Origin: Eublepharis macularius
Taxonomy: Eukaryota > Chordata > Lepidosauria > Squamata > Eublepharidae
Assembly (NCBI RefSeq): GCF_028583425.1
Contig: NC_072801.1
Coordinates: forward strand, 14,590,001-14,654,000
Direction: 5' to 3'
Length of the DNA: 64,000 nucleotides
Of the stretch, positions 4,165 through 56,904 are shown in pieces. The notes under the pieces are model-generated. The model had not been told where the DNA came from. It worked only from the letters and a program-made list of their open reading frames with translations, and searched no databases. The first letter of the stretch is position 1. The number at the start of each line of letters is the position of its first letter. A program made the position numbers and the translations under genes.

Positions 4165-4512
4165 TATTATGTTAGATTTCTTTCTCATTGGGTTGTATCA
4201 TAGTAATAACTAATATGGGAATGCCAGTAGTGATGTAGCTGTATGGATTTTCTGTTCTTCTGGAATTGGGCTGTGTATCAAATATGGCTTGGTATAGCTG
4301 GGTGGGGGCTTGCAATTCTTTCTCAGTGATGTATTCATAAAATGGGAGCCATTTTTCGTAAAACTGTGACCTGTTGGAGGAGTTATTTAGGTTGTGTAGA
4401 TTGTTAGTTATCTTTTCTATAATGACGTAGTCCCAAATTTTTAGATACCATTGCTTAACTGATGGTTGTATAGGTTTGTTCCAATTTACTGCTATTAAGT
4501 TTAAGGGAAGGA
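4165..4512 (-). mobile_element. L1-type LINE fragment, ORF2 C-terminal part
   Basis: On the minus strand an open frame (ending at 4172) reads like the far C-terminus of an L1-type ORF2 protein. It has a conserved 'W-x-x-x-W-D-x-x-I-x-E-K' stretch followed by an 'F-x-x-x-W-x-P-F' pattern typical of the region after the reverse transcriptase. The piece is 5'-truncated at about 4512, where it meets MITE sequence. It lacks a 3' UTR and poly(A), because the Gypsy LTR begins at 4162. Family assignment rests on pattern recognition only. Confidence 0.6.
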
Positions 4513-4741
4513 ATTTTTTAAAATTTAAATCGCCCTCAGTGAAAATGGTCACATAACTGGTGGCCCCATCACCTGATCTCCAGACAGAGGGGAGTTTAGA
4601 TCTCCCTCTGCGCTGTGGTGCGGAGGGCAATCTCAACTCCCCTCTGTCTGGAGATCAGGGGGCGGGGCCACCAGCCATGTGACCATTTTCAAGAGGTACC
4701 GGAACTCCGTTCCACCGCTTTCCTGCTGAAAAAAAGCCCTG
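4513..4741 (+). mobile_element. Fold-back hAT-type MITE, copy 1 (left end missing)
   Basis: This is a large palindrome whose arms share the block 'ctgatctccagacagagggg' and its reverse complement. It ends in aaaaaaagccctg, the right end shared by three other copies in this window. The left terminal cagggcttttttt is absent. The element instead abuts the LINE fragment, which suggests that the LINE inserted into it. Confidence 0.75.
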
Positions 4742-5099
4742 GTTGCAGGAGACAAAAGTATATCTGCAACAAAGCAAAAAAGCCTGCATTGGCTAATGTT
4801 AATGCATAAAGTTGATAAAAGGCTGCCACAACTTTTGAATAAGGTCCTCTTAGCTCAGGATGTGTCATTGTCATGAATCAAATGCAAACGACCAAAGAAG
4901 ACGTTCTTTATTCAGGAATATAATTCACTTGCTACGTGTTTTGAAGTACAATTGGTTTGACTGGTCAGCTTGACCAAGTCTCGCAGCAAAGTGCCATGAT
5001 ATGTTAATGCCCAGCGTGGTGTGCCAGTCAGAGTGTCAAACTACGATCTGAGAAACTCAGATTCAACTTCTCACTTTTCCGTTGAAGCTTGTTCAATGA
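4742..5099. other. Intergenic spacer between two MITE copies
   Basis: About 360 bases of unremarkable AT-rich sequence. No coding exon, RNA or clear repeat was recognised. Confidence 0.5.
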
Positions 5100-5344
5100 C
5101 AGGGCTTTTTTTTCAGGGGGAATGCGGGGGAACGGAGTTCCAGAACCTCTTGAAAATGGTCACATGGCTGGTGGCCCCACCCCCTGATCTCCAGACAGAG
5201 GGGAGTTTAGATTGCCCTCAGTGCCAATCTCAACTCCCCTCTGTCTGGAGATCAGGGGGCGGGGCCACCAGCCATGTGACCATTCCCTCCCCCCAGGACA
5301 ACCCACTGAGTTCCACCACCTCTTTTCCCAGAAAAAAAGCCCTG
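5100..5344 (+). mobile_element. Fold-back hAT-type MITE, copy 2
   Basis: The element starts cagggctttttttt and ends aaaaaaagccctg. Between these are two long inverted arms separated by a few bases at the centre (near 5221). The flanking octamers are ttcaatga on the left and ctcagtga on the right, a 6/8 match that fits an aged 8-bp hAT-type target duplication. Confidence 0.8.
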
Positions 5345-9027: not shown

Positions 9028-11611
9028 GTAAGCATTTGCAAATGAAGAATAAAAGAACTGTAGCCAATGTTCTGTGCTATTGGGAACCTTTTGTGCATAG
9101 GATATGCTGTTGTAGTTTGTTGGAGGCCTCATTTTGTAGGACGTCACTGGGTTATCATTCAAAACCTGATTATATTTGAAATGTAGAGTTCAGAGGTGCC
9201 TGTTCAAAGGACAGCTAGGTTTGCTCACGTTTCTTGATAAGGGCACGCGTGGTGCAGTGCTAAATGTTACTCTCCTTCTGTACAACTAAAGGCTTTTTTT
9301 TTTTAAAGGCTGTTAGGCCGGTCGCAGTTGTAAAGGGCTGGCTAGGTTCGTCTGTTGTAGTAAAATCTAAGAAAAGTCCAGTGGCACATTAAAGATTAGC
9401 AACATTTATTTCAGCATGAGCTTTCATGAACTGTGCCGCAAGCCTCTAATTAAGAGCTAAGACACAGATCTGCACTTCTCCCCTCCATCTTTCCGTAGTA
9501 GTTAAGACTGTCACGCTGCCTGGCAGGTTCTGTGTCCTGTGGCGTTGTGCAATCTGTCACAGCTCTCTCTAGCCATCATAAATCCAGAACGATGGCCCCC
9601 GGGGCTCGACGGCAGAAAGCAAGCTCCTCCGCCTGCTGCGGTCCTGGGTCTTTTACACCCGAGGCCTGCTGCAGACTCTGAAAGTTAGAGCTGAGGAGGC
9701 TTAGGGAGGCCCAGGCGAGGCTGACGGCAGCGCTGGTTTACGTCAAGGTCTGTTCCGGTTGCATAGGAAACAGTAAGGTGTTCATTTTTTTTCAATGCAA
9801 AATTGGCATGCTGAGGAAGGGTGTCGCACAGCCCCCCACCCCAGTGCCTGCCAATTACTTTTTGCATCCTCTCTCCCTGTGCTCTTTCCCCCTCACCAAG
9901 CTCATTTGCAAAATTGACCGAGACCTGCGGGCAGTAGGAGGCATTAGCAGGCCCACCCCCTATTACATACCCCCTTTTGTTCTGAATTTGGACCCCCCCC
10001 TACACCATCCTCTGCTTTGTGTGCCGTTTGGCTTCAACAAGACAGTTTGCTGTCTTTATGTGCTGTTAAGCCTGAGAACCAGGCGATGACTTGATTCTCG
10101 CTTCGTGGATCCCTTGCTGATTGGGCAAAGCCGCTGGGCTGGTGTGTGCTTGAATTGCCATGGGTGGAGAGAGTGGCGTGAGAGAATAAGATGGGATTAT
10201 GCAGAACCCTGTTCGCCAGTGAACTGGTTTTAGGTGGATAAAAAACTGAATGCTGCCGGAGCCGTCCGGTGGATTTAGGCCATTTTAAACATATAGTTTC
10301 TTAAATTTAAAAAGTATATTGGCAAATACTTTGTGAAGTAGTTAACCATAAATTCAGCATGAGTACAGTTAGATTATAGCCAAAATATCCAAACTAACAA
10401 CTGAGTACTAAAAAAAAATAAATCCAATGACATTCATTAGACAGGTCAGTTCTAAAATATGGAACTGGATGGCAGCTATCTGATGGCCTGGAAGTTCAAA
10501 AACAGCCTGAGATAAAACTTAAACATGGTGGGGAAGGGGGGAGAATAGGACTGCTGACCTTACTAATGCTGAGAAGGGCTCATCACCTGCAGCTCCTGTA
10601 GAAAACGTCAGTGGGAAGAACTGTCGGCTCCACGCTCCATTCAGCCCTCAGAATGGCACTGGTTTAGCAGTATATCAGGAATTGTGATGCATCATCCGTC
10701 CGTGATTCTTTTTGGGTAAATAAAATCTTCCACCTCGAACCCAAATGGGCATGTGGCTAAACTGTCTCATCTCTTCCTGTCATCTGCGTTGCTACGATTT
10801 TAGATAGCAATCCTGCAGGCAATGCCTGTCTTTATTTTTTATACAGTGCCTTTGGATAGGCATTTACGTAAACACTAATTTGTTGTTATTGAAAACAGCC
10901 CAAGAGTTCAGAGCCCTGTTTGCAACAATACAAACAAACTAGAGAGAAGCCAGTGTTAGAGGAAGCTTGGTTTCTTGCTCTGTTCTTGCCCTTTGCTGAA
11001 ATGGAGGTGAACTTTTGGGTTTGGTAGCTTATTGCCTGCTGCTGTTCTTTTGTTCATAGCTAATAGCCATCTGTAGTCAGTACTGGCAACTTTGAACTAC
11101 CTGTCTGGCTGCGAAATGCCCCCCCCCCCATTCCTTTTTTATCTGCAGCTCAAAGGCCTTATAACTGCTGCCCCCAAGCCATCACATAGAAACATTATGC
11201 CAGAGTTCTTGTGCAAAACCTGTGGACTGCTGAAGACATCCTCTTTGTTCATTTCCACACATACATTGATGTGCCATTGTTATATTTAGTAATGTTCACT
11301 TCCCAGTGTTAAATAGCCCCAATCCCAGAACATTTCCAGAGGAGGCTGGAAAATCCACTATGGAAACTGCTCGCAATGATACCACACATTTTTGGAAAAG
11401 CATGCATTTCTATGAAACTTTTACCTTTTGCCAAACTGGTGTTGGAAGAAAAAGTAGACCTTGGCACGTGTTGCCAAAAGGCCATCACTATTCTTTTGAA
11501 CAGTGGCTGTTGGAATTCTGAGTAGAAAAGCAGCTAGACTTAGAGGGTGGGCTATTAAAACATACATTTTGAAATACTTATAGTGGCATACTTACGGGAA
11601 ATAGATCCAGA
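9028..11611 (+). other. RAB40C: RAB40C intron 2, first part
   Basis: No coding exon was recognised. A fragment at about 9358-9432 ('gtccagtggcac' followed by a 'cagcatgagctttcatgaa' block) resembles the recurrent tail repeat R1 described elsewhere in this window. A GC-richer patch at about 9580-9760 shows no gene. Confidence 0.45.
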
Positions 11612-11783
11612 GGAGTTTGCCGTGTTAGTCTGTAGTAGCAAAATCAAAAAGAGTTCAGCAGCCCCCCTAGACTATCCAATTCCACTGCAGCAAGCCTTGT
11701 GCTGCAGTGGAATTGGATAGTCTAGGGGTGCTGCTGAACTCTTTTTGATTTTGCTACTACAGACTAACACGGCTAACTCCTTT
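11612..11783. repeat. Fold-back repeat (about 83-bp inverted arms)
   Basis: The left arm (about 11612-11694) and right arm (about 11701-11783) are near-perfect reverse complements around a short centre in 'gcaagccttgtgc'. The arms contain the 'actacagactaacacggct' block found at the end of the R1 repeat family, so this is probably two R1 tails joined head to head. Confidence 0.8.
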
Positions 11784-11977
11784 GAACCTTTACACAAGCA
11801 AACTGATCCCCACACCAAAAGGAGCTGTCTGCATCTCCATATCAAAGGAGTTGTTTACATCCCTCCCCCCTCCCCTCCCCTCCTCTATATTTGACCAGTT
11901 TCCTTCTGCCCTCCATGCATCTGACGAAGAGAACGTGATTCTCGAAAGCTTATGCTACAATAAAAATGGTTAGTCTT

Positions 11978-13497
11978 GATTCGGTTTCGTTTTCTCAGCC
12001 ATGCCGGACGCTCCTCTCGGCTGGTCCGGGAGGAAACGACCGGGCACCCTGACCGGGCGGCTGATCCGCAAGGATTAGCCCCCAGGACTCCCAGGGAGGG
12101 AGCCAGGGTCCGGGACGCGGCGGGAAGAACTCCCCGAAATCAATGCGGGGGGGGAATTGCCCGTTTGTCCCTATGGAGGCCGGCAGATGTGCGCGGCGCC
12201 TCGAGTGCCGCCGGGCAACGAGAAACGGCAAGTAAAAGAAACAGGCGGAAGCCTGTAAACAAGCGAATCCCTTCTGTTTTACAAGCGTTTGTGAAGGAGA
12301 GGTTGATCTGAAGAAGACTCGCTCTTCCCCTTCGTTGAGTTCCAGAATTTTGTTGGCGCCCCCCCCCCCCAAATGGCAGCAAGGAAGCAAAGTCCCGCTC
12401 TCGGTAAGTCAATCTCGGCTACTTTGAAGGGGGAGTCGCTCGAAGAGTTGGTGCGCAGGGCGGTGGTGGAAGCCATAAAACCCTTTGTTGACAAGCTGAA
12501 CGAAACTGATCAAAGGGTGGGCTTAATTGAAAGCGAGGTGAAAACCATTAAGGCAGCAGCGGGGGGGGGGGCAGAAAAGTCTGCTCTGGAAAGTGCGTCA
12601 CTTGTGAAGGCTACAAAAAAGGAGCTGAAGTTGGTGGAGAACCAGCTGATCGGGCTACAGGTGGAACGAACGCAGACAATTTTGCGTCTCCAAAACGTGA
12701 AAGAGGAGGAAAATGAGGATCTGTGGGATTTGGTCTCGGAACTACTGGCGACACCCGCGAGGACGACTAAAGAAGAGGTTAAAAGCGCCATTTTGGAGGT
12801 CCGTCGGGCTTCTTCAAAATATGCAACAAAGCGACAGTTGCCTCGTGAGATCATTATTGACTTTTCATCTAAAAAGATTCGGGACACCATCCTATATAAC
12901 TCATACAATGCGGATTTGGACTTTATGGGTTTGAAAGTCAAGATCTTGAAGGACGTTCCATTTCTAGTCCGGAAACGGCGTTTTAAATATAAAAAGTTTG
13001 CAGCTCTTCTGAGGGACCATGGAATAAAGTACAAATGGTTATTCCCGGAAGGAATATGGTTCAGATATAAAGATCAGGCCTATAAGATATTATCAGAAGA
13101 TCAACTAAAGGATTTTGAGAATAAAAACCCAGAACTCTGCTGCACCGAGAACGAAGAAAAGGAGGAGCCGGAGGGGGGGGAGGAGGAGGAGGAGAGCACC
13201 GCAATAGCGGTTGCACAGAGAGAATTGCGTCCGGGACCTAGAAGGGGGAGGAAAGTTTAATCAGAATTTGAAATGTTTATTCTCTGTATGATTAACCACT
13301 CCATCATTATTCTATGGAGCTATTTTTGTATTATGACAGTATGAAGGGAAACATTGAAGTGTAGTGTTTAGTGTTTGTAGTTCATTCCCCCTCCCTTTTC
13401 TTTTTCCACCCCCATTTGTCCCTTCCCTCTCCCCTTTCCTTGTGATAGTCTGGTGTCGTGTTTTGTAGTTATGAAAATAAAAAAATTTATAAAAAAA
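11978..13497 (+). mobile_element. HAL1-like (ORF1-only L1) retroelement, copy A
   Basis: The 1.5-kb element is flanked by the direct repeat aaaaatggttagtctt (11962-11977 and 13498-13513). It has a CpG-rich 5' UTR of about 395 bases, an intact 295-codon ORF1 (12373-13260), a 237-base 3' UTR with a pyrimidine-rich stretch, an AATAAA-like signal and a poly(A) tail. Target duplications and tail show L1-type insertion. There is no ORF2, and the second copy in this window has the same structure, so this is not a one-off deletion. Mammalian HAL1 elements have the same layout. The insertion is sense to RAB40C and could offer a promoter or poly(A) signal to the intron. Confidence 0.85.
12373..13260 (+). 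CDS. L1 ORF1p-like RNA-binding protein (intact, 295 aa)
   Basis: The product has the layout of L1 ORF1 proteins, which bind element RNA as trimers. A heptad-rich, likely coiled-coil segment spans about residues 20-100. An RRM-like domain at about 101-172 begins 'ILRLQNVKEE'. A C-terminal domain at about 190-250 carries the family's 'RRFKYKKFAALLRDHGIKY' pattern. An acidic stretch (about 258-284) precedes a basic tail. The ATG at 12373 follows a C run and has G at +4; it is the first ATG in this frame and matches the start in copy B. An 11-G run at codons 63-67 keeps the frame open. No ORF2 follows; the stop is 237 bases from the poly(A). Codon usage and CpG content differ from the AT-rich intron around it. 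The family call is firm by pattern; that the protein is made is inference. Confidence 0.85.
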   Translation: MAARKQSPALGKSISATLKGESLEELVRRAVVEAIKPFVDKLNETDQRVGLIESEVKTIKAAAGGGAEKSALESASLVKATKKELKLVENQLIGLQVERTQTILRLQNVKEEENEDLWDLVSELLATPARTTKEEVKSAILEVRRASSKYATKRQLPREIIIDFSSKKIRDTILYNSYNADLDFMGLKVKILKDVPFLVRKRRFKYKKFAALLRDHGIKYKWLFPEGIWFRYKDQAYKILSEDQLKDFENKNPELCCTENEEKEEPEGGEEEEESTAIAVAQRELRPGPRRGRKV

Positions 13498-14735
13498 AAA
13501 AATGGTTAGTCTTAAAGGTGCTACTGGACTCTTTTTTACTTACGGGAAAGACTTCCCTAGGAGCATCAAGTGCAGGTTGAATCCCGAGTATCTTTTTGGC
13601 TTTTCTTTTGTGGTTTTAGGAAACACAAAGCAGCCATAGCTTAAAGGGCTTTGATAGCCATCATAGCTCAGTGCTTTCATAACCAAGTATTTGCGGAGAG
13701 TTAGATGATTTCCCCAGAATGCAGACTGTAGTCTCTTTCCACACACAGCTGGTATTTGCTTCTTACTGGTATGGTCCTAAGTTAGCTTCATGAATCCACC
13801 TGTACCCATACAAACACACATTTGCGTGCTCACAATGCTAACAAAATCAGGACATAATTTCTGGAAACTGGTTTATGCTCATCACTGTCTTTCTTCATTG
13901 CTTACATTGCGGTGGCTTTTTCTTCCTTCTTGGCAGTGAGCCACTGCTGTTTCACAAATATCGTTGAGAGTCCAGGAAGGAGAAAAATGCAATACTTGGC
14001 TTGCATCACATGGCTATGAAGCATATAGGGGGGGGACCATATATAATTCACAAAGGCCTGAAAAGCACTAGGGGAGAGTCCTAATGCTCGTGCCCTTCCT
14101 TCTCTGCCGCCTCTTCTGCCCTTGTCCCCTTAGTGCTTTATATCACAGGGGATCAAATGTCCACAGGGTGCAGTTGGTAAGTGGTTCTTACGCAGTTATC
14201 ATCTCCTCTCTGGAAGCACATCTTCCTGTGGAAGAACTCTGGATGCGCAGGTATGCACACGACCATGCGGGAGAGTCATCGAGTGCCGCTTTCCCACATG
14301 CAGCCCATGCCCAGTTAGAAAGAGCAGTGTCTCAAGTCGATGTTGTAACCCCAGTCTTTTAGCTTGAACTGTGTAGCTACTTGCTCTTTCTTCTCCAGCA
14401 ACTGAAATGAAACTATCTGTCCAGGTTGCTCCTTTTGGATTAGTGCCCTATTTTTGTGCATAAGGGAAGGGCTGAATCATTGTAAGTCTTCCTCCTCCTC
14501 CTTTCTGGACTGTTGACAGCCTGTCTAAGAGATCGTGCAGCCGTGTGACAAGAGGCTTGGCATCTGCAAGGAATCAGCACAGAGCCGGCTTCATAAGGAA
14601 TCTTTTCCCTCCTGTGCTGGCTTTAGAATGTTTGTCATGCCTCCTTGTGATCTGCCTTAGAGAGAAAAGTGGCTGCAGCTGACTAGAGATCCCTTTAGAT
14701 GGGAATGCTATGTAAATATGGCTGTTGTGGTCCAG

Positions 14736-14800
14736 AATTTGCTTAATTCCAGGCACTATGAAGTGCATAGGTATCGGTGCTTGATCACAGACCTAATCGT
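14736..14800 (+). repeat. 65-bp inverted duplicate, left copy
   Basis: Reverse-complement partner at 17690-17754 with 61 of 65 bases identical and no gaps. Similarity stops sharply at both ends. Confidence 0.85.
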
Positions 14801-17689
14801 GATGTTTTCCAGGTTTATTCTGTATTAAATGCAACCTCAAGGAAACATGAAGCAATATGGGCATGTTGCACGTTGTTATCCTCAGCCGTGTCACTGGGCA
14901 TGTGTGAGCATTCTAAAAAGATGGGGCTGTGGTGCCCTGGGGGAGTTTTTTCTTTGCATGCCAAAGGTTTAGTTCCCAACATCTCCACCCAAAAGGATCG
15001 GGTCATAGGTAAAGTGAAAAGCCTGTACCTGAGGCCCTGGTGATGCACTTCTAGCCAGAGTAGAGGGTGCTGACTTTGATAGACCAATGGTGTAATTTGG
15101 TGTGTTTGTGCATTTGGTACAGCAGGTTGCAATTATGAATGCTGACAGTTTGCTTTATTTTTCTCCTGTCGGGTTATTTTACATTCTGTAGAGCACCTTT
15201 GCTGCTTTTGTAGATGGTATTCTGTTCACGGTATGGCAAATGATAAGGCCTTTTCTTTCCTCTCCCCTCTAGTTTGAAGATGTGGGTTGGTAAATTAATA
15301 TTAAATCAGTGCTCAAAAGATGTGTCCCTGCAGCATGGTTAGATCTCTGTGTGTGAAACTAATGGCAATGTTGTTCACAGCTCTGTAGAGCGTAGTTAAG
15401 CGTGGCCAGAAGTTTGTAAATAGAGTCCTGCTGTTGTGTTTCTCCAATTGCTGTGGAATGAATCAACAGGCAGTGCTCCAGTGGAATTGCACACGCAGCT
15501 AAAAAGTGACATGAAGGCAATTGATTCATCTGTTCTTGCAGTCCCTTCAAGGAAAAGTTTAGCTCTAGCCTCTCTCAGATGACTTTGACATAATACCTAA
15601 AGAATCTGGGAGGAAGTACTTGGCTCCTGTGCTTCGGTTCTCTTGCCTCACTTTTTATACCACTATCCTGTTTCTTGTTTATTCTTGGGTGATTCTACTT
15701 TTTATTCCTCCCTCTAGCTGCTGAACTGCAGAGGGTGACAGTTGACTGGAACAATTTGCTGTTGGTTTTTATGTAATGATTTGATGTTATGATGCAATAA
15801 ACTGTTGGCTTTGGGCCTTTGGGAAGCTCATACTAAGCATGTTGGTTCTAGACTGTTTTTTTAAAGGGAAGTCGGCTTTGCAGTAAGTTATCCTTGAGAG
15901 TTAACTGCTGGGGGTGGGTGGGGGGAGTAATTTCTAAGGCTTACAGTGCCCCACTCTTGGGAGTACGGCAGTCTTTAACAATACAGTTAAATAATATTTA
16001 GCATGTCACTGAGTAGTATGAACAGAATCTGGTCGTGATGGCTAAACTGTTGTTAGAGTTGATGGTAGTAGTGCACCTCTGATTATCAAAGGAGCTTTGT
16101 TGCTTCCTAAAGTGAGACTGTTTTATACACTGTCAATTTTGTCTTTCCAGAATAGGTTGTGAAAAGAAAGGCTTACGGTGGGTTAAATGGCCTTTCGGTC
16201 AAAGTCATTGGTCTCTTCAGCCAAAATGAATTTGAGATTGGGCTGCTTGCCCTTGTATCTCAAGTCAAAAGGCAAAGATATGTTATGGTCCCGGTTTCAG
16301 TTTCTGGAGACTTAACTTCAGTTAAGTTCTGAAGGGAACTTAACTAAAGTTAGTTAATGTTGGCGATTGAACAGGCCCTTCTTAGGTGATCTTTTGGGCT
16401 AGCTAGTAATATCACTGTTGCTCAGATGCCATGTAAGACGCCTACTATGTAGACTTAAAAGTTCAGTGGAAGATTTCTTCTTTTGTTTTGTTCTTTACAG
16501 CAAACAAATCTAAATACTACCTGTACTGAGGCACTTTGAAAGATACAGTTGGAAGAAAGGTTTGGGGTTTTTTGCCAAAGGTTTGGAAGAATCATTTCAG
16601 CTATATTGCTTGGGTAATGTCCATAGACAGGCAAGCGAACAGTGTTGCAATATGTGTTGTTGTGAGGTTCTGTCAAGTAACTTTCAAAGACTTGGCTGCG
16701 TGAGTCCAGGAACTGCATGAATTAAAGCATTTTCTTTGATAAGCTACTAGTTCATTTCCTCTTACACTCCTTGCCAGGAATGGTGTTTCTCTACAAGCAC
16801 ATAACATATATAGGATTCTAAGCCCACCCCCTTTCAGGAAACAATTAGCTAAGTTTAATAAGTGAGCAGCAGGACATAGCAGAGATGATGTGTGAGAAAC
16901 TCCAAGGCCATGAGGCCTGGCCTCTCAGGTGAAAGAGAAACTGCAGGCTGGGAAAGAGATCACAGCAGGCTGTCACATTCCAGGCAGAGAGCCACACAGA
17001 ATCAAACAGGCCTTGCAGAGTATGACAGGAGACATCCTGACAATGATTTCTTTTGTTCACTATCCTAATAAAAATGTCACACAACTGTAGATGTAAAGGA
17101 ATCTCCCCCATCATTGGATGCCATTAATTATCGCATATGTGCTCATACAAAGCTGTGTTCCTGCAAGGTGGAAAGATCTTTCTCTTTCCATCTGTAGTGG
17201 TGTAGATGATAACTCTGTGAAAAGTTGGCCCTCTGGCTATGTTTGTTGCTGAGGTTTGATGTGGTAGTTGATTCTTTCCTGATTTGTGTATTCCTAAACA
17301 CTTCCTCTAGAAATTCTATTTTGGGGCCCCATCAGCGTGTTGGGTTTGGAAGTGTGCTCCGGTCTGAGCTGTTTGCTTCAGCCAGTGAGTGTCTTATTAA
17401 AGCAAGCAGACAGCATCACAACCTTTTAGGGACTACGAGAAAAGCCTGTCTTGCTTCCATAATTCTGTACCAACCTGCACAGTGCAGAACATTTTTTATG
17501 AGCTTGACTTCCTAAAACCTGTGCTATTACGTTTGTGGTAAAGCAGGTTCTTAGTTCTTAAAGCTATGAAAAGATGCCCAAAATATACACAGTTTCTGAC
17601 AGCAATTCATAATTCATAGCAGTGTTTCCCTTGCAGGGAATCCTAATCTACTCTGTGGGGAAGGAAAAATAGCACTTGGAAGCTGGACA

Positions 17690-17754
17690 ACGATTAGGTC
17701 TGCGATCAAGCGCTGATACCTATGTACTTCATAGTGCCTGGAATTAAGCAAATT
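17690..17754 (-). repeat. 65-bp inverted duplicate, right copy
   Basis: Minus-strand copy of 14736-14800, about 2.9 kb away. It may be a short fragment of an unrecognised repeat family. Confidence 0.85.
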
Positions 17755-18900
17755 AAAAGCTAAATAAAAGACTGCAGTGTGAGATCATCCACAAGCTGAA
17801 GCTGATAAAAAACGTAGCTGCTCATCTCCGGTCAGGAATTAAATAAAGCACATAAAGCCAGTAAATTTGTAAGGCCAATTCACAAGGTTAATTCTGCAAA
17901 TCTCTGTATGGTCTCGCATTGGTCTACGTCTTGCTGCTGTCTGTTTTTTATTCTGGCCTTGTCTCACTTAAGATCTGTGGATCTTTTCTTACTGGTTGGC
18001 TTCATTTTTTCAAAGTTGTATTTGGTGTATTTGTTTTCATTGATAGGCTTTGCGTTTTGTTAGCTGTTTGAGTGAATATTTGTATCTGAAAAAGTAAATG
18101 CATTAAAAGTAAATGCATTGTAGAAATCCAACTGTGTGATTTAAGGGTTTGTGTCTAAATCTCTCTTTTATGCCAGTTTGTAGCTGTCTACTGCTGGCTT
18201 CTTCATCCTTCTGTAATTCGGCTCCCCTGTGTCTTGAGGCTCCCCTGGCAATAAGGCTGAAAATTCTGCTTGTGGGAGACACCCTGTTCTCTCCCTCAGC
18301 GGCTGCGTTGTCTATGACAGTGTTGCAGCAGAGGGGTGTGGGTTTTTTTCCATCTTTGCTGTGAGATACACAGGGTGGGTTCTGTCCTAGTTAGACCCCA
18401 TGCTGCTCAATATTTAACTTGCAAAGCCAAGTGTGAGGAAATGATTGGGAGGAAGGGCAGCTAAGATCCATTTCATAGACTCTCACAAAGCCTGACAGAA
18501 CTGTGTTCGGAAGCCAGAAAGCCTCCTTATTCCATCTTTCTATTAAAGTGGTGAATCTATGTTCTCACCTGGCCAGCAGAGAATATTGCTTCCTGTTGTT
18601 CTCACTCAATCCTGTTTTGAGTTCCATAGGAAGCAAACATCCTATTACAGCCTTTTATGCTACAACCATCTATTTCTTTGCAGAATATGGTGATGATGTA
18701 GGAGAGTGTGTCTCAGAGGGATGTTGTTTCCCATGCTGCTCCAGAGTAGATGATGGGTATGGAAATATTTAATGTTTGAGTTGGTATCCCTGTTGTGCTA
18801 CTTTTAGGGAAGTGCAACTCAGGAGCAATGTTTAGTGCATCTCAAGTAGGACCCTTTTATGGAGTACACAGTTTTTAAAATGAGAACTTGTGGGGAATGG

Positions 18901-20425
18901 ATTCGGTTTCGTTTTCTCAGCCATGCCGGACGCTCCTCTCGGCTGGTCCGGGAGGAAACGACCGGGCACCCTGACCGGGCGGCTGATCCGCAAGGATTAG
19001 CCCCCAGGACTCCCAGGGAGGGAGCCAGGGTCCGGGACGCGGCGGGAAGAACTCCCCGAAATCAATGCGGGGGGGGGGAATTGCCCGTTTGTCCCTATGG
19101 AGGCCGGCAGACGTGCGCGGCGCCTCGAGTGCCGCCGGGCAACGAGAAACGGCAAGTAAAAGAAACAGGCGGAAGCCTGTAAACAAGCAAATCCCTTCTG
19201 TTCTACAAGCGTTTGTGAAGGAGAGGTTGATCTGAAGAAGACTCGCTCTTCCCCTTAGTCGAGTTCCAGAATTTTGTTGGCGCCCCCCCCCCCAAAATGG
19301 CAGCAAAGAAGCAAAGTCCCGCTCTCGGTAAGTCAATCTCGGCTACCTTGCAGAAGGGGGAGTCGCTCGAAGAGTTGGTGCGCAGGGCGGTGGTGGAAGC
19401 TATAAAACCCTTTGTTGACAAGCTGAACGAAACTGATCAAAGGGTGGGCTTAATTGAAAGCGAGGTGAAAACCATTAAGGCAGCAGCGGGGGGGGGCAGA
19501 GAAGTCTGCTCTGGAAAGTGCGTCACTTGTGAAGGCTACAAAAAAGGAGCTGAAGTTGGTGGAGAACCAGCTGATCGGGCTACAGGTGGAACGAACGCAG
19601 ACAATTTTGCGTCTCCAAAACGTGAAAGAGGAGGAAAAAGAGGATCTGTGGGAGGTGGTCTCGGAACTATTGGCAATACCCGCGAGGACGACTAAAGAAG
19701 AGGTTAAAAGCGCCATTTTGGAGGTCCGTCGGGCTTCTTCAAAATATGCAACAAAGCGACAGTTGCCTCGTGAGATCATTATTGACTTTTCATCTAAAAA
19801 GATTCGGGACACCATCCTATATAACTCATACAATGCGGATTTGGACTTTATGGGTTTGAAAGTCAAGATTTTGAAGGACGTTCCATTTCTAGTCCGGAAA
19901 CGGCGTTTTAAATATAAAAAGTTTGCAGCTCTTCTGAGGGACCATGGAATAAAGTACAAATGGTTATTCCCGGAAGGAATATGGTTCAGATATAAAGATC
20001 AGGCCTATAAGATATTATCAGAAGATCAACTAAAGGATTTTGAGAATAAAAACCCAGAACTCTGCTGCACCAAGAACGAAGAAAAGGAGGAGCCGGAGGG
20101 GGGGGAGGAGGAGGAGAGCACCGCAACAGCAGTTGCACAGAGAGAACTGCGTCCGGGACCTAGAAGGGGGAGGAAAGTTTAATCAGAATTTGAAATGTTT
20201 ATTCTCTGTATGATTAACCACTCCATCATTATCCTATGGAGCTATTTTTGTATTATGACAGTATGAAGGGAAACATTGAAGTGTAGTGTTTAGTGTTTGT
20301 AGTTCATTCCCCCCCTTTTTCTTTTTCCACCCCCCTTTGTCCCTTCCCTTTCCCCTTTCCTTGTGATAGTCTTGTGTAGTGTTTTGTAGTTATGAAAAAT
20401 AAAAAAATTTATAAAAAAAAAAAAA
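18901..20425 (+). mobile_element. HAL1-like (ORF1-only L1) retroelement, copy B
   Basis: Same structure as copy A: 5' UTR beginning attcggtttcg, ORF1 region, short 3' UTR and poly(A). It is flanked by a perfect 19-bp target duplication gagaacttgtggggaatgg (18882-18900 and 20426-20444). Counting by eye gives about two dozen substitutions against copy A over about 1.5 kb, roughly 98% identity, besides homopolymer length changes and two 3-base indels. Both copies are nearly full length at the 5' end, unusual for chance L1 survivors and consistent with a short element. It lies sense to RAB40C. Confidence 0.85.
19297..20182 (+). pseudogene. L1 ORF1-like gene, frameshifted at a G run
   Basis: This frame corresponds to the 295-codon ORF1 of copy A. 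The G run after codon 63 is two bases shorter here (9 instead of 11), which shifts the frame. The N-terminal part then runs into a stop at 19693-19695, while the downstream part (RRM-like and C-terminal domains) stays open to 20182. A 3-base insertion near codon 18 and a 3-base loss in the acidic tail are in frame. The single slip is either a recent mutation or a homopolymer sequencing error. Confidence 0.8.
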
Positions 20426-20444
20426 GAGAACTTGTGGGGAATGG

Positions 20445-28751: not shown

Positions 28752-29070
28752 CAGGGCTTTTTTTCTGGGAAAAGAGGTGGTGGAACTCAAGACCACAGAA
28801 TGACATCACTTTGGGTCAGCTGGAACAAGGGGGGAGTTTTTTAAAGTTTAAATCGACCTTGGCGAAAATGTTCACATGGCCGGTGGCCCCGCCCCCTGAT
28901 CTCCAGACAGAGGGGAGTTGAGATTACCCTCTGTGCTGCTCTAGCGGCATGGAGAGCAATCTAAACTCCACTCTGTCTGGAGATCAGGGGGCGGGGCCAC
29001 CGGCCATGTGAACATTTTCAAGAGGTGCTGGAACTCTGTTCCCCCGCATTCCCCCTGAAAAAAAGCCCTG
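28752..29070 (+). mobile_element. Fold-back hAT-type MITE, copy 3 (longest, 319 bp)
   Basis: It starts cagggctttttttct and ends aaaaaaagccctg, with a perfect 8-bp target duplication cttatggg (28744-28751 and 29071-29078). The inner arms form a long hairpin centred near 28945. It keeps an extra outer arm segment (about 28770-28870) that copies 2 and 4 lack, so it is nearest to the parent. There is no coding capacity. The 8-bp duplication and CAGGG end fit the hAT superfamily. Confidence 0.9.
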
Positions 29071-29589
29071 CTTATGGGTCAAACAGTATAGGAAGGGCTG
29101 TTGCCTACATGTCCTGCTAGTGGGTTTCCGGGAGGCTTTTAGCTACCCACAGTTGGAAGTAGGAAGCAGAAGAAACTCAACATTAGCAGGATCCAGCTGG
29201 GCTGCCCTCTTGGTCTCCGGATTAGCGCCAGGAGCCCTTCACAACTGTGTCTGTAAACTGGTCTTCTAAATGCTGAAAGCAATGTTGGGACTGGCTTTCA
29301 TATGCTACAGTCACTTCTGTAGTTGGCACTGATATATTGATGAAGATGGTGATGCTTCTGTGGCTTGCTTTAGGACGGGATGCATCCTACGGGTTGGTTT
29401 CTTCAGCTGGTTTCCTCGAGGCCAGTGCTCCAAGCCAGGCTTATGCAAGTGCATCAGCCTTGTATGACAGTCCATGGGGGTGGGGGCTGTTGGGTCTCAG
29501 TAACTTCTCGGTTTCTTCTGCCTGTTTCAGGGAATGCAAAAATGAGCCAGGCATGTGAGCAAGTTCCAACACACAGCTGCTGGGTCATG

Positions 29590-30847: not shown

Positions 30848-31030
30848 GAGTTTCTCTCTTTGCTAGTATATATCACAGCATTGATGCTGTGATATATACT
30901 AGCAAAGAGAGAAACTCTTCTAGCATTGATGCTGTGATATATACTAGCAAAGAGAGAAACTCTTCTAGCATTGATGCTGTGATATATACTAGCAAAGAGA
31001 GAAACTCTTCTAGCGTTGATGCTGTGATAG
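30848..31030. repeat. 45-bp minisatellite with hairpin at its left edge
   Basis: Units start at 30878, 30923 and 30968, with a partial fourth at 31013. Each unit is 45 bases and nearly identical. The left flank (30848-30880) is the reverse complement of the unit's core, making a perfect hairpin of about 33-base arms around 'tga'. As 45 is divisible by three, a frame here repeats IDAVIYTSKERNSSS; this is taken as chance. Confidence 0.9.
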
Positions 31031-31365: not shown

Positions 31366-31423
<58 letters not shown>

Positions 31424-31524
31424 ACTCACTCACTCACTCACTCACTCACTCAGGAGCCACGAATGAAAGTAAAGCAAGTTAAATCAAAGCAGTTTGCCCT
31501 TCTTTAGACCAGCAGCCCTGCTTG

Positions 31525-31591
<67 letters not shown>

Positions 31592-31915
31592 ACTCACTCA
31601 CTCAAGAGCCACAACTGAAAGTAAAGCAAGTTAAATCAAAGCAGCTTACTCTTCTTTAGAATGCCAGCCCCAGCAGCCTGGCTGCTGCCTCCGCTTCCTG
31701 CTGCTAAAGAGACGGGCAGCAGGGAGGCAGCCTTGAGAAAAAGGAATCACGTGGGCAGGGCCAAAACCCATGTGATCTCTGTTCAGAACGCCGTTCCAGG
31801 CGTTCCTCCTCCAAATGAACCCTGGAACTAGCGATCTGGTGACTTGGCTGTTGTGCCCACAGAGAGGGCTCTGCGTGCCAGCTGTGGCACGCGTGCCATA
31901 GGTTCGCCATCGCTG
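31217..31915 (+). mobile_element. hAT-type nonautonomous element with microsatellites inside
   Basis: Terminal inverted repeats cagtgatggtgaacc and (reversed) cagcgatggcgaacc are flanked by a perfect 8-bp target duplication ctctatac (31209-31216 and 31916-31923). The interior holds two related segments in tandem, each with a (CT)n then (CACT)n array (31369-31452 and 31529-31604) followed by a 'gagccac...gaaagtaaagcaagttaaatcaaagcag' stretch. No transposase is encoded. Confidence 0.9.
31369..31604. repeat. Paired (CT)n(CACT)n microsatellites
   Basis: Two arrays: CT 31369-31419 with CACT 31418-31452, and CT 31529-31587 with CACT 31586-31604. The segment between them is repeated after the second array, so the pair arose by duplication. 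Confidence 0.9.
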
Positions 31916-51930: not shown

Positions 51931-53693
51931 GTGAGTGCTGCCTTGGTGCTGCCACGGGGCTGCTTGGGTGCAAGATGCCTTTTTATGGGAAAGGAGGGTG
52001 AAGGCAGTCGTTATGGGGAGGGTCTGTAGCGCCATGTGCTTTGCCTGTGTAAGTGGCCTAGGTTTCATGCTTGGCACCCAGAACAGCAAAGCTGGGAATC
52101 CCCTCTGCCACAGAGACCAGGAAAATGCTGCCAAGTGGAAAGGGGGTCATTTTAAGAGGGCAGGGAATACTTATGGGATGATCTACACTTTGGGCTGCTA
52201 AATTAGCCCCATTGTAGAGAGAGCCCTTCCCTATCAGCATAAAGAGTTGTGCTTAGATTAACAGCTTTTCTTGCACATCTGCCTTTGAAGATGTTTCCTT
52301 GATGTGTATATTTTGGTCACATGTGGCCCCATGGCCTACATTTACTGCTACTGTTGGGCCTGCCCCCCCCCTGCTTTTTTCCTGTCTGGGAGTTGAGACA
52401 GCTTTATTGGGGGGGGGGGGTGGAATTTTTTCCTGCCCAGCCAGCTATATGATATGCAGGAGGTGGTCTTATACCATGCTGGGGTGCATTGAGACATCAG
52501 GATTTTAAGTGCCATGGAAGAGGGGAGAAATTGATCTCATCCACCCTGCTGGCATTTTGACGGGGCTTGTATGGAAAAGGAAGGTGAATTAGCGACAGTT
52601 TGCATTGTTCACCTTGGGCTACAAAGTAAGAGGGACCAGCCCTCAGGTATCACCACATTTCCAAGGAGAGGAGAAAGGAATGAGCGTTTCCAGCAAAGTG
52701 TACAGTGAAATGCATAACATCTGTGCAGATGTTAGCAGGCAAAGGCCAGTTCACGTTTTTTAGTTGCTGCTCTGGGCAGGCGTTCATAGTTATGAGAACT
52801 GCTGTACAGCTGAATAGATTCTTGTGCACGTGTGGCTGTGACTCAGTGATGGGTATAGGGTAAAGGCAGTGCAACCCACCCACGAACGTTCACAGAGTGC
52901 AGTCACAATGTTTGGAAAGCAAAGAAGAAAATTCTTTACTCAAATACCTGGGGTGCAGCGTTGTTTCCACAGGGTCCCTTGAGGATGGTTGATGTTCCCC
53001 ATGTCCCGTTCTCACCCATGCAAAGTGCATAGGCAGTGTCTCAGGATCCATGTGGGCTGCATAGAGAAGGGAACGATTTCCTGGCGCCAGCCAATCCATG
53101 CACGTCCCTTATCCCAGGCGATGGGGTTTGCATGTATCAGGAGAGACAGTATTGTGACTGGGCACTGAGTTGGATGTTGCCACTTTATTGGTAACACCCA
53201 TGCTATGTGGATAGATTGGTCTGGTGGCTGTACCTTGTTCTATGTCTGGTGAAGTGACCCGTAAAAAGATTATGGGGGAAACCTCTACCTTAATCTTTAA
53301 ACTGCCACAGCACCCCTTTTGTATCCTTCTGCTACGGACTAATCCAAGCCCCATTTGGAATTATTGTTGAGATATAGCAGGAGCGACACACTTTGACTGC
53401 TGCTGTGCATTAAAATAGCTCTTCTGTGGGGTTGAGTTAGGAGCTCAGAGTCTTCGTGGAGTGAAACGATTGTGATGGTTGTACTCGAGTGAGGGGGGCA
53501 TTTTAGAAACTCTAAGTTAGTCTCGCCCCTTTAGAGAGATGATGTGTTTTCACTGAAGATAACGGTCTGGGGTGTATGATTAAATAGCAACCTGGTCAAG
53601 TTGAGGCGACAACTTACGAGGAGCCTACTATGAAAGGGAGGCTGTAAGCTCTCTGAGCTAGACTTTAAATGTTTGTTCTCACTTTTCCTACAG
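51931..53693 (+). other. WFIKKN1: WFIKKN1 single coding intron
   Basis: About 1.8 kb splits the WAP domain between its cysteines, at the same point as the human intron as I recall it. No recognised repeat except G and C runs. Acceptor 'ttttcctacag'. Confidence 0.7.
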
Positions 53694-55187
53694 GATTGCG
53701 AGGGCTTTGAGAAATGTTGCACCAATGTCTGTGGCCTGCGGAGTTGCGTGGCTGCCCGTTACGCCGATGGAAGCCTGTCCTCTCCAGAGCTGGCACGGGA
53801 GGCCACATGCGAGAGCTTCGTTTGCACGCAGCAGGGCTCCAATTGTGATGTCTGGGATGGGCAGCCCGTCTGCAAGTGCAAAGACAGGTGTGAGAAAGAG
53901 CCCAATTTCACCTGTGCCTCTGATGGACTCACTTACTATAATAAGTGCTATATGGATGCTGAGGCTTGCATCCGAGGCGTTGGCCTGGCCGTGGTACCTT
54001 GCAAATACATTTTTGCCTGGCCTGACGCCAGCCCGGCACCAACAGAGACGACGGCCCGCCCAACTCCTGGAGCTGCTGCCGAGGCACCGGTCCCACCAGC
54101 ACTCTATAACAACCCGTTTCACCGGTCAGTGTACGTGGGCGGGACTGTCAGCTTCCACTGTGACGTGAGCGGGCGGCCACGCCCTGACATCACGTGGGAA
54201 AAGCAGAGTGACCGCCAGGAAAACTTCATTATGCGTCCCGATCGAATGTACGGCAACGTAGTGGTGACCAACATCGGGCAGCTTGTGGTCTACAATGCGC
54301 AGCCAGAAGATGCTGGAGTCTACACATGCACAGCCAGGAATGCTGCTGGTCTTCTCCGAGCAGACTTTCCCCTCTCGGTCATTGAGAGAGAGCGCTCTGG
54401 ATGGGAGCCGAGGGCACCAGGCATCTCACGTCTCCCTCCTGGAGAGTGCCTGAAGGAACCGGATAAACGGGACTGCGAGGCCTACCGAGTCCGCTGGCAT
54501 TTTGACTCAAAGAAGGGGTCATGTTCCACATTCCGCTATGGAGGATGTGGTGGTAACCGGAACCGCTTTGAAACATATGAGGAGTGCCGCCTGGCTTGTG
54601 CCGATAATGCAGTCGACCCGTGCTCCCTTCCTGTGGTGCAGGGTCCCTGCAAGGACTGGGAGCCCCGTTGGGCCTACAATCGTCTGATGAAGCGGTGTCA
54701 TTCCTTCATCTACGGAGGCTGCGAAGGCAATGAGAACAACTTCGAGAGCAAGGAGAACTGCGAGGACATTTGCCCCTTCCTCAAGACGTCCCGCTGCAAA
54801 GCATGCCGCCTGAAGAGCAAGATGGTTTCGAGCCTGTGCCGCAGCGACTTTGCCATTGTGGGGCGGCTGATGGAAGTTGTGGAAGACCAGGACTCTGGCA
54901 TCGCCCGCTTTGCTTTGGATGACATCTTGAAGGATGAGAAGATGGGTCTCAGGTTCTTTGACATCAAGTATTTGGAGGTGACCTTGTCGGATATGGACTG
55001 GAACTGCCCCTGTCCCAATATGACTGCCGAGGACGGGCCTCTCATCATCATGGGGGAGGTGCATGATGGCATGGCGGTTCTCGACCCTGACAGCTATGTT
55101 CGAGCTGCCAATGACAAGCGTGTCAAGAAGATCCATGAGCTTCTGGAGAAAAAGACCTGTGAGCTTCTTGACCGGTTCCGGGACTAG
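53694..55187 (+). CDS. WFIKKN1: WFIKKN1 coding exon 2 of 2
   Basis: Codes residues 55-551. The WAP domain is completed with C56, C62, C63, C67 and C72, giving all eight cysteines of a four-disulfide core. A follistatin/Kazal domain follows at about 93-157, a Pro/Thr linker at 163-190, an Ig domain at about 195-285 (C210, W222, Y264-x-C266), Kunitz 1 at 306-356 and Kunitz 2 at 364-414, each with six cysteines and 'YGGC' then 'GN'. An NTR domain runs from C422 to the end. By position, the P1 residue of Kunitz 2 is Lys374, which fits trypsin-like inhibition; that of Kunitz 1 is Glu316, which does not. The stop TAG is at 55185-55187. The ATG at 53673 is in the intron and is not a start. Confidence 0.95.
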   Translation, partial: DCEGFEKCCTNVCGLRSCVAARYADGSLSSPELAREATCESFVCTQQGSNCDVWDGQPVCKCKDRCEKEPNFTCASDGLTYYNKCYMDAEACIRGVGLAVVPCKYIFAWPDASPAPTETTARPTPGAAAEAPVPPALYNNPFHRSVYVGGTVSFHCDVSGRPRPDITWEKQSDRQENFIMRPDRMYGNVVVTNIGQLVVYNAQPEDAGVYTCTARNAAGLLRADFPLSVIERERSGWEPRAPGISRLPPGECLKEPDKRDCEAYRVRWHFDSKKGSCSTFRYGGCGGNRNRFETYEECRLACADNAVDPCSLPVVQGPCKDWEPRWAYNRLMKRCHSFIYGGCEGNENNFESKENCEDICPFLKTSRCKACRLKSKMVSSLCRSDFAIVGRLMEVVEDQDSGIARFALDDILKDEKMGLRFFDIKYLEVTLSDMDWNCPCPNMTAEDGPLIIMGEVHDGMAVLDPDSYVRAANDKRVKKIHELLEKKTCELLDRFRD

Positions 55188-55535: not shown

Positions 55536-56647
55536 CCCCAGGCATGGGTTGTTGTCTTCTGTCCGTGTCCTCAACCTCTTTCAGATTTGTTGTGTGGGGT
55601 GGAATGGGAAGGGGAGGGGTGGATGAGTTTTGTTTTGAACATTCTGTATAAGGAGTAGATAGCTGATTAAGGACTTGATGCCTAAACTCTGTGTTCCCTG
55701 TGTCATGCATGGTGATGAGAATGTTTTACGGTCTTCTGCTTATTCAATTACTCTGTAGAAGATACTACAAGGAATGCTGTTTCAATCTTTCTGGTTTTAA
55801 ACTTGCTGGCTTCTTTTTCCATATACACGTTCCTTCCTCAGCCATTTTGGCATTTGGATAGGTTGCAAAGGCAAAGGAATCTCCATTTGATTCTGAATGG
55901 CGGAGAGATCTTTGACATGCCTCCCCCCGAAGATGGCCTGTGGTAAGACTGAGGAGGGTGTCAGTGGGCGCTTGGTTTCTCAGTCCATTTGTGAAAATAA
56001 CTGAAAATGTCGTGTGCTTTCTCCTGTCTATGGAGTGGGGCAGCCTCAGTTGCCGGGAAAGTTCCACCTGTGGACACAAGGCGGCTTACAGACTTTTGGG
56101 GACTTCAGAGGGAGGGGCTTCCCTTGGGGGCAGGCAGTAGGTTGAGGCTTCTTTTGTTACGAGAACGAGATGCGTCCCGTTCTTGGATGTTTGTTTCACA
56201 GCCGGTGCTCTTTTGCTGAAAGTGGCAGATGAGAGAGCACCCTTGGGTGAAGGCCTCTTGGTGGTCCACCTTCCTCCGGGCTCCAGATGGGAGTCTGAGT
56301 GACAGCTACAGGTGAGCAGGTGGCCTCCCCTCCCTTTTCTGGCTGGTGTGTTGTGCGAAGGAACTTTTGTGGGCAATGGCATCACAGAGGCGTGAGGGGT
56401 AGGAAGCCTCTTTTCTGCCCTGCTTACCCCGTGGGAGGAAGGACTTGCTCCAGACAACTATTCACCGTCCTTCCATACGATTGTTAACACACAGTTGTGA
56501 CTACATCAAGTGTGGGACTGCGGGCCTACACAACGCAGAAGACTGTGTGAGGGACTGGAGCTTTGTTCTTCACTTCTTCTGGGCCCTTCTGATGGAGAGG
56601 TTGAGCAGAGGAGGGGAGGGAGCCCATTCCAGTCTGTTGGTTGGATG
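55536..56647. other. Intergenic, WFIKKN1 to METTL26, first part
   Basis: No exon, RNA or clear repeat recognised. Confidence 0.4.
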
Positions 56648-56904
56648 CAGGGCTTTTTTTCAGCAGGAAGACGGTGGAATGGAGTTCTGGAACCTCTTGA
56701 AAATGGTCACATGGCCAGTGGCCCTGCCCCCTGATCTCCAGACAGAGGGGAGTTGAGATTGCCCTCCGCGCCACAGCACGGAGGGCTATCTCAACTCCCC
56801 TCTGTCTGGAGATCAGGGGGCGGGGCCACGGGCCATGTGACCATTTTCTCCGAGGGCAACCCACTGAGTTCCACCACCTCTTTTCCCAGAAAAAAAAAGC
56901 CCTG
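56648..56904 (+). mobile_element. Fold-back hAT-type MITE, copy 4
   Basis: Starts cagggctttttttcag and ends aaaaaaaaagccctg. Flanking octamers gttggatg (56640-56647) and gttggacg (56905-56912) match at 7 of 8 bases. It has the same palindromic core as the other three copies. Confidence 0.85.

Follow-up and report, generated by a model that had tools for sequence, protein, structure and literature searches.

A probable HAL1-like family of recently active, ORF1-only L1-type elements

The two related elements described here very probably belong to a recently active, nonautonomous L1-type family (family A) that encodes ORF1p only, resembles HAL1 in its organisation and would combine its own ORF1p in cis with the ORF2p of an L1 in trans. 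Both lie in the window, the whole stretch of 64,000 nucleotides that was analysed, with a spacing of 6.9 kb. A full element of family A measures about 1.5 kb and is composed of a 5' UTR of ~395 bp, one frame resembling L1 ORF1p (295 aa), a 3' UTR of ~237 bp, poly(A) and its own target site duplications (TSDs). The features of the two window copies are as follows.

11962..11977, + strand: 5' copy of the 16-bp TSD of element 1, AAAAATGGTTAGTCTT, from reading of the sequence
11978..12372, + strand: 5' UTR of element 1; its first bases, GATTCGGTTTCG, are the 5' end common to full-length A copies
12373..13260, + strand: intact ORF1 of element 1 (295 aa), with L1 ORF1p homology over residues ~44-255
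12561..12571, + strand: poly-G run of 11 G within ORF1 of element 1
13261..13497, + strand: 3' UTR of element 1 (237 bases) and start of the poly(A), with no ORF2 between ORF1 and the 3' UTR
13498..13513, + strand: 3' copy of the TSD of element 1, AAAAATGGTTAGTCTT
18882..18900, + strand: 5' copy of the 19-bp TSD of element 2, the last base of which is also the first base of the element
18900..~20425, + strand: element 2, full length, of the same family as element 1, with ORF1 frameshifted at the poly-G run
20426..20444, + strand: 3' copy of the 19-bp TSD of element 2

Element 1 thus occupies 11978-13497 and is followed by a short poly(A); its 3' UTR is pyrimidine-rich in the middle and carries AATAAA close to the end. 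A preliminary description had reported the shared layout without ORF2 and the perfect 16- and 19-bp TSDs, which were found again at the same positions. The 3' UTR length that it gave was confirmed in element 1 by counting from the ORF1 stop, and its estimate by eye of ~98% identity agrees with the computed ungapped difference of 1.85% between the copies. An ORF1p-like frame had been ascribed to both. This stood for element 1, where the frame is intact; in element 2 the poly-G run has 9 G versus the 11 of element 1, and the frame from the ATG is reduced to 132 aa.

The family is widely dispersed. When the genome was searched with element 1, 40 matches out of 2,011 first-look candidates were scored. 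All 40 (element 1 included) align along almost their full extent with an identity of 95% or more. Exact probes located the A ORF1 end (33 nt) at 1,333 places and the A 5' end at 934 places genome-wide; the reversed control gave 0 in each case. The near-identical matches and the ORF1-end count against its empty control exclude chance, and these numbers bear out the earlier proposal of an amplified family as opposed to a chance deletion. At 31 of the 38 A loci examined the TSDs are exact and measure 14-25 bp, with a median of 18 (A-rich tail sequence is counted in the one of 25 bp). Each is different, and the insertion sites have a pyrimidine before the nick and purine-rich sequence after it. 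The insertions of family A are independent and occurred at L1-like target sites. The recent activity that had been proposed is upheld by a mean pairwise difference of 0.8% among 32 A copies, which were chosen as best matches. Several sub-subfamilies with recurring 3' UTR variants exist within A and B, the latter a second subfamily described below.

Reading through to the tail at the 38 loci and at 20 further variant junctions revealed no ORF2 in A. Of 40 places listed in a search with just the 3' UTR, 30 were read (element 1 among them). All 30 were ORF1-only copies in which no ORF2 separates ORF1 from the 3' UTR. The 5' end was present at 24 of the 30, one of which lacks a small internal segment, so that the share of full-length copies is high. 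On C1:1-137.7 Mb, all 65 exact A 5' ends run via ORF1 into the 3' UTR without ORF2. Exact A ORF1 ends were checked at 91 of the 100 places listed on C1, and every one continues into the 3' UTR, as followed by exact probe (53), by reading (37) or by a contiguous full-length match (1); for 70 of the 91 the check reached no further than 24 to 80 nt past the stop. An autonomous L1 has ORF1 together with an ORF2 containing endonuclease and reverse transcriptase (RT), a combination seen in none of the A copies examined. The search for copies with ORF2 between ORF1 and the 3' UTR thus came back empty among the copies examined, in line with the nonautonomous, ORF1-encoding LINE of HAL1-like organisation that had been proposed.

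Several comparisons connect the protein to L1. The A ORF1p was matched by phmmer to a structure of human L1 ORF1p (2ykp; E 3e-4), a profile search with A and B gave E values of 0.001-0.003, and blastp against three related groups of L1 ORF1 from the same genome gave E values of 1e-20 to 6e-19 at about 26-32% identity. The part resembling the RBD comprises residues ~116-176. Scores against Pfam PF02994 were below the cut-off of 22.4 bits (18.3 bits for A, 14.3 bits for B), and the A ORF1p gave no tblastn match (E 1e-3) in the ORF1 region of a single sampled L1 whose ORF2 is open. Judged by this similarity, family A encodes a homologue of L1 ORF1p. Structure prediction from the single sequence was poor (mean pLDDT 49, pTM 0.33), and a helical N-terminal part is predicted by this poor model only.

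Subfamily B has its layout and its ORF1/3' UTR junction in common with A and is ~17% diverged; the 3' UTRs of A and B can be aligned. Exact B ORF1 ends occur at 386 places genome-wide (reversed control 0). In a search with B, all 40 scored matches extended without interruption from base 367 of the 1790-base query onwards; one stopped at 1672, several at 1777-1789. TSDs were detected by script in the four examinable copies of eight, and the mean pairwise difference among the eight was 2.4%. A relative with 84% identity in L052 had been taken for an old copy; its own search showed it to be this other young subfamily, and an argument about age that was built on it was therefore dropped. A third, distant family, C, is also ORF1-only and accounts for the loci L071, L072, L073 and L080, which were fetched at guessed L1 3' positions. 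C might have arisen from an L1 in which a long spacer separates ORF1 from ORF2 (L050); this is no more than a guess because the C 3' UTR and this spacer align only in short matches.

Between A and B, ORF1 has a dN of 0.077, a dS of 0.67 and a dN/dS of 0.114 (32 x 8 pairs). For the first 10 A copies against the 8 B copies, dN/dS was 0.111 in frame and 1.10 and 2.05 in the out-of-frame controls, a difference that shows, from substitution patterns, that ORF1 was under purifying selection. Fixed differences between A and B number 21, 15 and 72 at codon positions 1, 2 and 3. Within A, dN/dS was 0.31. Within B it was 0.52 and the differences had no codon-position bias, both of which are expected of dead copies and by themselves do not support selection. 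Synonymous sites differ between A and B by 44% (uncorrected) versus 17% in the 5' UTR and 31% in the 3' UTR, an excess that is only partly explicable. Because a dS of 0.67 would imply implausibly old ages at the usual vertebrate neutral rates, the A-B split is left undated. The poly-G run varied from 8 to 12 G in the A copies measured (29 of 32), and short frames occurred in those with 9 or 10 G. A shortened ORF1 of 76-132 aa was present in 12 of the 32 A copies and in 4 of the 8 B copies, and among the 20 long A frames 7 have an altered C-terminus, so that many inserted copies would not make the full protein.

Alternatively, the element might be a SINE-like L1 derivative, formed by deletion, that carries ORF1 passively, the selection signal being inherited from full-length ancestors and ORF2 having been lost independently in A and B. 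Non-coding nonautonomous L1 passengers do exist, and both the many copies with a broken ORF1 and the dN/dS within B would fit. However, two independent deletions would hardly have produced the same ORF1 stop/3' UTR junction with alignable 3' UTRs. Together with the dN/dS values between A and B and within A, and with no ORF2-bearing relative of A at the 65 exact 5' ends on C1, this makes a passive ORF1 unlikely. A further reading has L1 making mass retrocopies (processed pseudogenes) from a domesticated L1TD1-like ORF1 gene of the host, or from two such genes; these too would have poly(A) and TSDs, begin at uniform 5' ends and show a conserved frame. This origin is judged very improbable, as the recurring 3' UTR variants of the sub-subfamilies point to many source copies, and the long 5' UTR, with its small A-B difference relative to synonymous sites, looks like one that holds an internal promoter. 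The proximity of the window copies and their 98% identity would suit a segmental duplication of a single L1 deleted for ORF2. That origin is refuted by the separate TSDs of each copy and by over a thousand dispersed copies, and has practically no probability left; the earlier description had named such segmental copies as an outcome that would overturn its reading, and the TSDs across the A loci speak against them.

Under the preferred reading of a nonautonomous ORF1-only family, the junction common to A and B indicates a common ancestor already without ORF2, and selection on ORF1 while ORF2 was absent is the simplest account of the data. Selection would then have maintained ORF1 for its benefit to the RNA of the element itself, and ORF1 would not be a passive relic. 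Mobilisation is presumably by L1 ORF2p in trans. A promoter within the conserved 5' UTR would drive synthesis of the element RNA, the element's own ORF1p would coat it in cis, and ORF2p from an L1 elsewhere would nick the target, prime on the poly(A) and copy the RNA, which amounts to target-primed reverse transcription in trans. The genome also contains elements in which the RT frame is long and open, and two that were sampled were judged L1-type by eye. It had been expected that the 3' end would resemble that of the mobilising L1. Among candidates from PF02994 and PF00078 searches, none was found to share the 3' end or the 5' UTR of A. The 3' end was read in four L1s (L062, the internally deleted L058, and the copies at C1:211308310 and C2:150730036); all differ, and their likeness to A or B is limited to poly(A) and either AATAAA or an A-rich end. 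Ten pieces were taken at guessed L1 3' positions, and only two (L077, L078) lay inside an L1. By blastn, the UTRs matched sampled L1s over 39 bp at most, and the best match (E 3e-4) was in the flank beyond the L1 end.

A preference of L1 proteins for the RNA encoding them is generally assumed, which makes it puzzling that ORF1 was kept and ORF2 lost. The chances are about even that family A represents a stable ORF1-only LINE lineage outside mammals, whose ORF1p (~30% identical to those of L1s in the same genome) was selected through the A-B split and is specialised in drawing the ORF2p of unrelated L1s to its own RNA. A young, abundant family with strong selection on ORF1 makes it testable whether ORF1p in cis wins ORF2p in trans. 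Provided that the host is no mammal, as the earlier description supposed, HAL1-type biology extends beyond mammals. Were C separately derived, C alongside A/B would represent repeated origins in one genome, and the gag-only lifestyle would be a recurrent strategy and not a mammalian oddity.

In mammals, published accounts describe HAL1 as L1-derived, encoding ORF1p only, with poly(A) and TSDs, and as thought to depend on the L1 RT and endonuclease (PMC5322556, PMC3627910, PMC5753468). Several independent origins are reported for mammals (PMC5753468), as is an ORF1 of guinea pig HAL1 that retained its coding capacity for ~29-44 Myr (PMC3627910). Family A is likewise L1-type, with ORF1p only, poly(A) and TSDs. 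It differs in that, of the ORF1s compared, those of L1s in the same genome are the nearest to its own, and in that a recently active family at over a thousand probe sites, two diverged subfamilies and a distant third ORF1-only family are found in one genome. No description of such an element in squamates was found in the literature searched. With the L1s of the same genome, A shares ORF1p homology, poly(A) and the marks of target-primed insertion; it differs from them in lacking ORF2, in its length (1.5 kb versus ~6 kb for L062) and in UTRs that match the sampled L1s only over short stretches. HeT-A of Drosophila is a non-LTR element of the Jockey clade that encodes Gag/ORF1 only, borrows its reverse transcriptase and is telomeric. 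Family A would be similar in being gag/ORF1-only with a borrowed reverse transcriptase; unlike HeT-A, it is dispersed and has L1-type TSDs.

The HAL1-like reading proposed in the preliminary description stands and has been strengthened. Family A, the ORF1-only L1-like retrotransposon family that includes two copies in the window, is a real and young family with a diverged sister subfamily (B) and selection on ORF1. A further ORF1-only family (C) is present beside A and B in the same genome. Three sources describe HAL1, the half-L1 of mammals, as an ORF1-only L1 derivative of several origins that carries target-site duplications (TSDs) and poly(A) and depends on L1 reverse transcriptase and endonuclease (PMC5322556, PMC3627910, PMC5753468). 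No squamate HAL1-like element was found among the literature matches listed; Repbase and Dfam lay outside this search, and a library entry may exist.

The two window copies were found where they had been placed, with TSDs of 16 and 19 bp:

11978-12372: 5' UTR of copy 1, 395 bp
12373-13260: ORF1 of copy 1, 295-aa frame
12561-12571: poly-G run within ORF1 of copy 1; length varies at the homologous place in other copies
Following ORF1 of copy 1: 3' UTR, 237 bp
Enclosing copy 1 (11978-13497): TSD, 16 bp
18900-~20425: copy 2, with a 19-bp TSD

Their identity had been put at about 98%, and a difference of 1.85% was measured over ungapped sites. An ORF1p-like frame had been attributed to both; it is open in copy 1 (295 aa), the only one of the two with an intact ORF1, but is shifted in copy 2 at the poly-G run (9 G versus 11 G in copy 1). 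Homopolymers resembling this run also occur in the 5' UTR and immediately before the ATG.

A search of the entire genome (2.24 Gb in 72 contigs) with copy 1 gave 2,011 first-look candidates. All 40 scored matches (copy 1 included) had an identity of 95% or more over almost the entire length; they form an incomplete list, from which copy 2 is absent. Exact probes located the last 33 nt of ORF1 at 1,333 places and the element's initial 36 nt at 934, with none for the reversed controls. These counts, which bear out the amplified family that had been claimed, are lower bounds on copy number because diverged copies escape the probes.

The absence of ORF2 was examined from both ends of the element. 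The 3' UTR alone gave 926 candidates, of which 40 were listed and 30 loci read (copy 1 included). ORF1 lay directly upstream of the 3' UTR in all 30; the 5' end was present in 24 (among them L021, which has lost a small internal segment), and six were 5'-truncated. Of the 1,333 ORF1-end places, 733 matched an exact junction probe that joins the end of ORF1 to 24 nt of 3' UTR. On one contig, C1, this probe matched 53 of the 100 ORF1 ends listed and missed 47. In 20 of the latter, reading reached a poly(A)-like tail, and the same 3' UTR followed directly after the stop in every one (80-97% identity over the aligned part). A further 17, read 77-80 nt past the stop, all entered the 3' UTR, and one falls within a contiguous full-length match, so that 91 of the 100 listed ends were followed past the stop. 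Variants of the 3' UTR that recur among copies (TTAG.., CCAG.., ..CCTATTC..) represent sub-subfamilies.

Exact 5' ends on C1:1-137.7 Mb number 65. An exact ORF1 end lies 1,204-1,267 bp downstream of 52 (25 with the exact junction, 9 and 17 read, one in the contiguous match), and the other 13, read over ~250 bp, all continue past the end of ORF1 to the 3' UTR. In all 65, therefore, the 3' UTR follows directly on ORF1; in the exact-junction and 17-place sets the view is limited to the start of the 3' UTR, and an ORF2 behind a 3'-UTR-identical spacer is formally possible there. Where reading extended as far as the tail (copy 2, 37 other loci and 20 further junctions), no ORF2 was found. The claim that the family lacks ORF2 thus held: a majority of copies with ORF2 between ORF1 and the 3' UTR was looked for, and such a copy was seen at none of the 30 loci and none of the 65 5' ends.

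An exact TSD was detected at 31 of 38 A loci; these TSDs are 14-25 bp long, with a median of 18, and every one is different. A pyrimidine (T or C) precedes 25 of the 31, and the first TSD base is A or G in 28. The other seven loci have shorter exact TSDs (7-10 bp) or none by script detection. TSDs with such target bases, together with poly(A), are marks left by L1-type target-primed reverse transcription.

A search with the L1 ORF1 model (PF02994) led to L052, a locus with an 84% relative. This relative, used as query, yielded 4,556 first-look candidates, and all 40 scored (query included) were at least 96% identical; exact ORF1 ends of this subfamily, B, occur 386 times genome-wide. Its 5' end and its junction of ORF1 stop and 3' UTR are those of A, and its TSDs are its own in the four of eight copies examinable by script. 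Divergence between A and B is 17% for the 5' UTR, 16% for ORF1 and 31% for the 3' UTR. One B copy (L063:1501-2088, equivalent to L061:126-713) has a ~220-bp tandem duplication inside the 5' UTR.

Pairwise Nei-Gojobori counts were made for 32 A copies (38 loci minus 6 truncated) and 8 B copies. Between A and B, ORF1 gave a dN of 0.077 and a dS of 0.67 (ratio 0.114), and divergence at synonymous sites is much above that of the UTRs. For the first 10 A copies against the 8 B copies, the ratio was 0.111 in frame versus 1.10 and 2.05 in the other two reading frames. Fixed A/B differences number 21, 15 and 72 at codon positions 1, 2 and 3, and those within B favour none of the three positions. Within families, dN/dS was 0.31 (A-A) and 0.52 (B-B). 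The A copies' spread of 0.8% understates family diversity because these copies are the best matches to copy 1. Since the ORF2-less junction is common to A and B, the simplest reading is that selection on ORF1 acted on an element already without ORF2. Twenty of 32 A copies (13 with a normal C-terminus) and 4 of 8 B copies retain a frame of 287 aa or more. The remaining frames break at 76-132 aa, as predicted from how long the poly-G run is. The run has 7-12 G in the copies where it was measured (29/32 A, 8/8 B), and its length tracks frame openness.

The A ORF1 protein was matched to the human L1 ORF1p structure 2ykp (E 3e-4, residues 44-255), and an A+B profile to 2ldy (E 0.0012). Matches to the Pfam L1 RBD model were weak (A, E 0.003, below the cut-off; B, E 0.05). 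The nearest ORF1s among those compared belong to three related L1 groups (L062 and kin, L058, and the second L1 in L061), at 26-32% identity (E 1e-20 to 6e-19); similarity to C and to L050 is lower. A single-sequence AlphaFold2 model was poor and usable only for predicted long N-terminal helices.

Family C accounts for 11 of the 22 PF02994 loci (L051:883-2534; L040, L042, L044-L047, L049, L054, L059, L060). The element is ~1.65 kb, with a G-rich 3' UTR, poly(A) and no ORF2; the 5' end is common to all 11 loci, and nine have TSDs of 15-20 bp. Unlike those of A and B, its ORF1 scores above the Pfam cut-off (28.3 bits). Among the 10 copies with a start found, ORF1 is 326-360 aa in three and broken in seven. 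C as query gave 200 candidates, and 40 places were scored (query included): 39 match over at least 1.4 kb and one in two adjacent pieces, at 97 to 82% identity, the query aside. No gap able to hold ORF2 was found among these 40. Within C, ORF1 dN/dS was 0.34, versus 0.91 and 0.78 out of frame. A/B and C look like separate origins, because the C ORF1 is nearest to that of L050 (33%) and only ~23% identical to that of A. By eye, L050 itself looks like an L1 whose ORF1 is separated from an ORF2-like start by a long gap of ~1.1 kb.

Long open reverse transcriptase frames coexist with A in the genome: from 83,480 candidates, 150 RVT_1 matches were scored, and dozens of these have 1,258-aa open frames. 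One element of this type, sampled in pieces, is by eye L1-type with an ORF1-like frame, to which the A ORF1 protein had no match at E 1e-3. The 3' end of A had been expected to resemble that of the L1 that moves it. This was not borne out among four L1 3' ends read, whose resemblance to A/B goes no further than poly(A) and an end that is A-rich or carries AATAAA. If poly(A) were the sole requirement, as it is in mammals, no sequence trace of the helper L1, the presumed source of ORF2p in trans, would be expected.

Other features were observed in the window:

53673-55187 (+): open frame of 504 aa whose text is follistatin/Kunitz/netrin-like, presumably a WFIKKN host gene
4496-5341, 28819-29073 and 56647-56902: inverted-repeat pairs of a MITE-like dispersed family, arms 60-210 nt
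11603-11789: further inverted-repeat pair
30877-31029 and 31369-31670: tandem repeats
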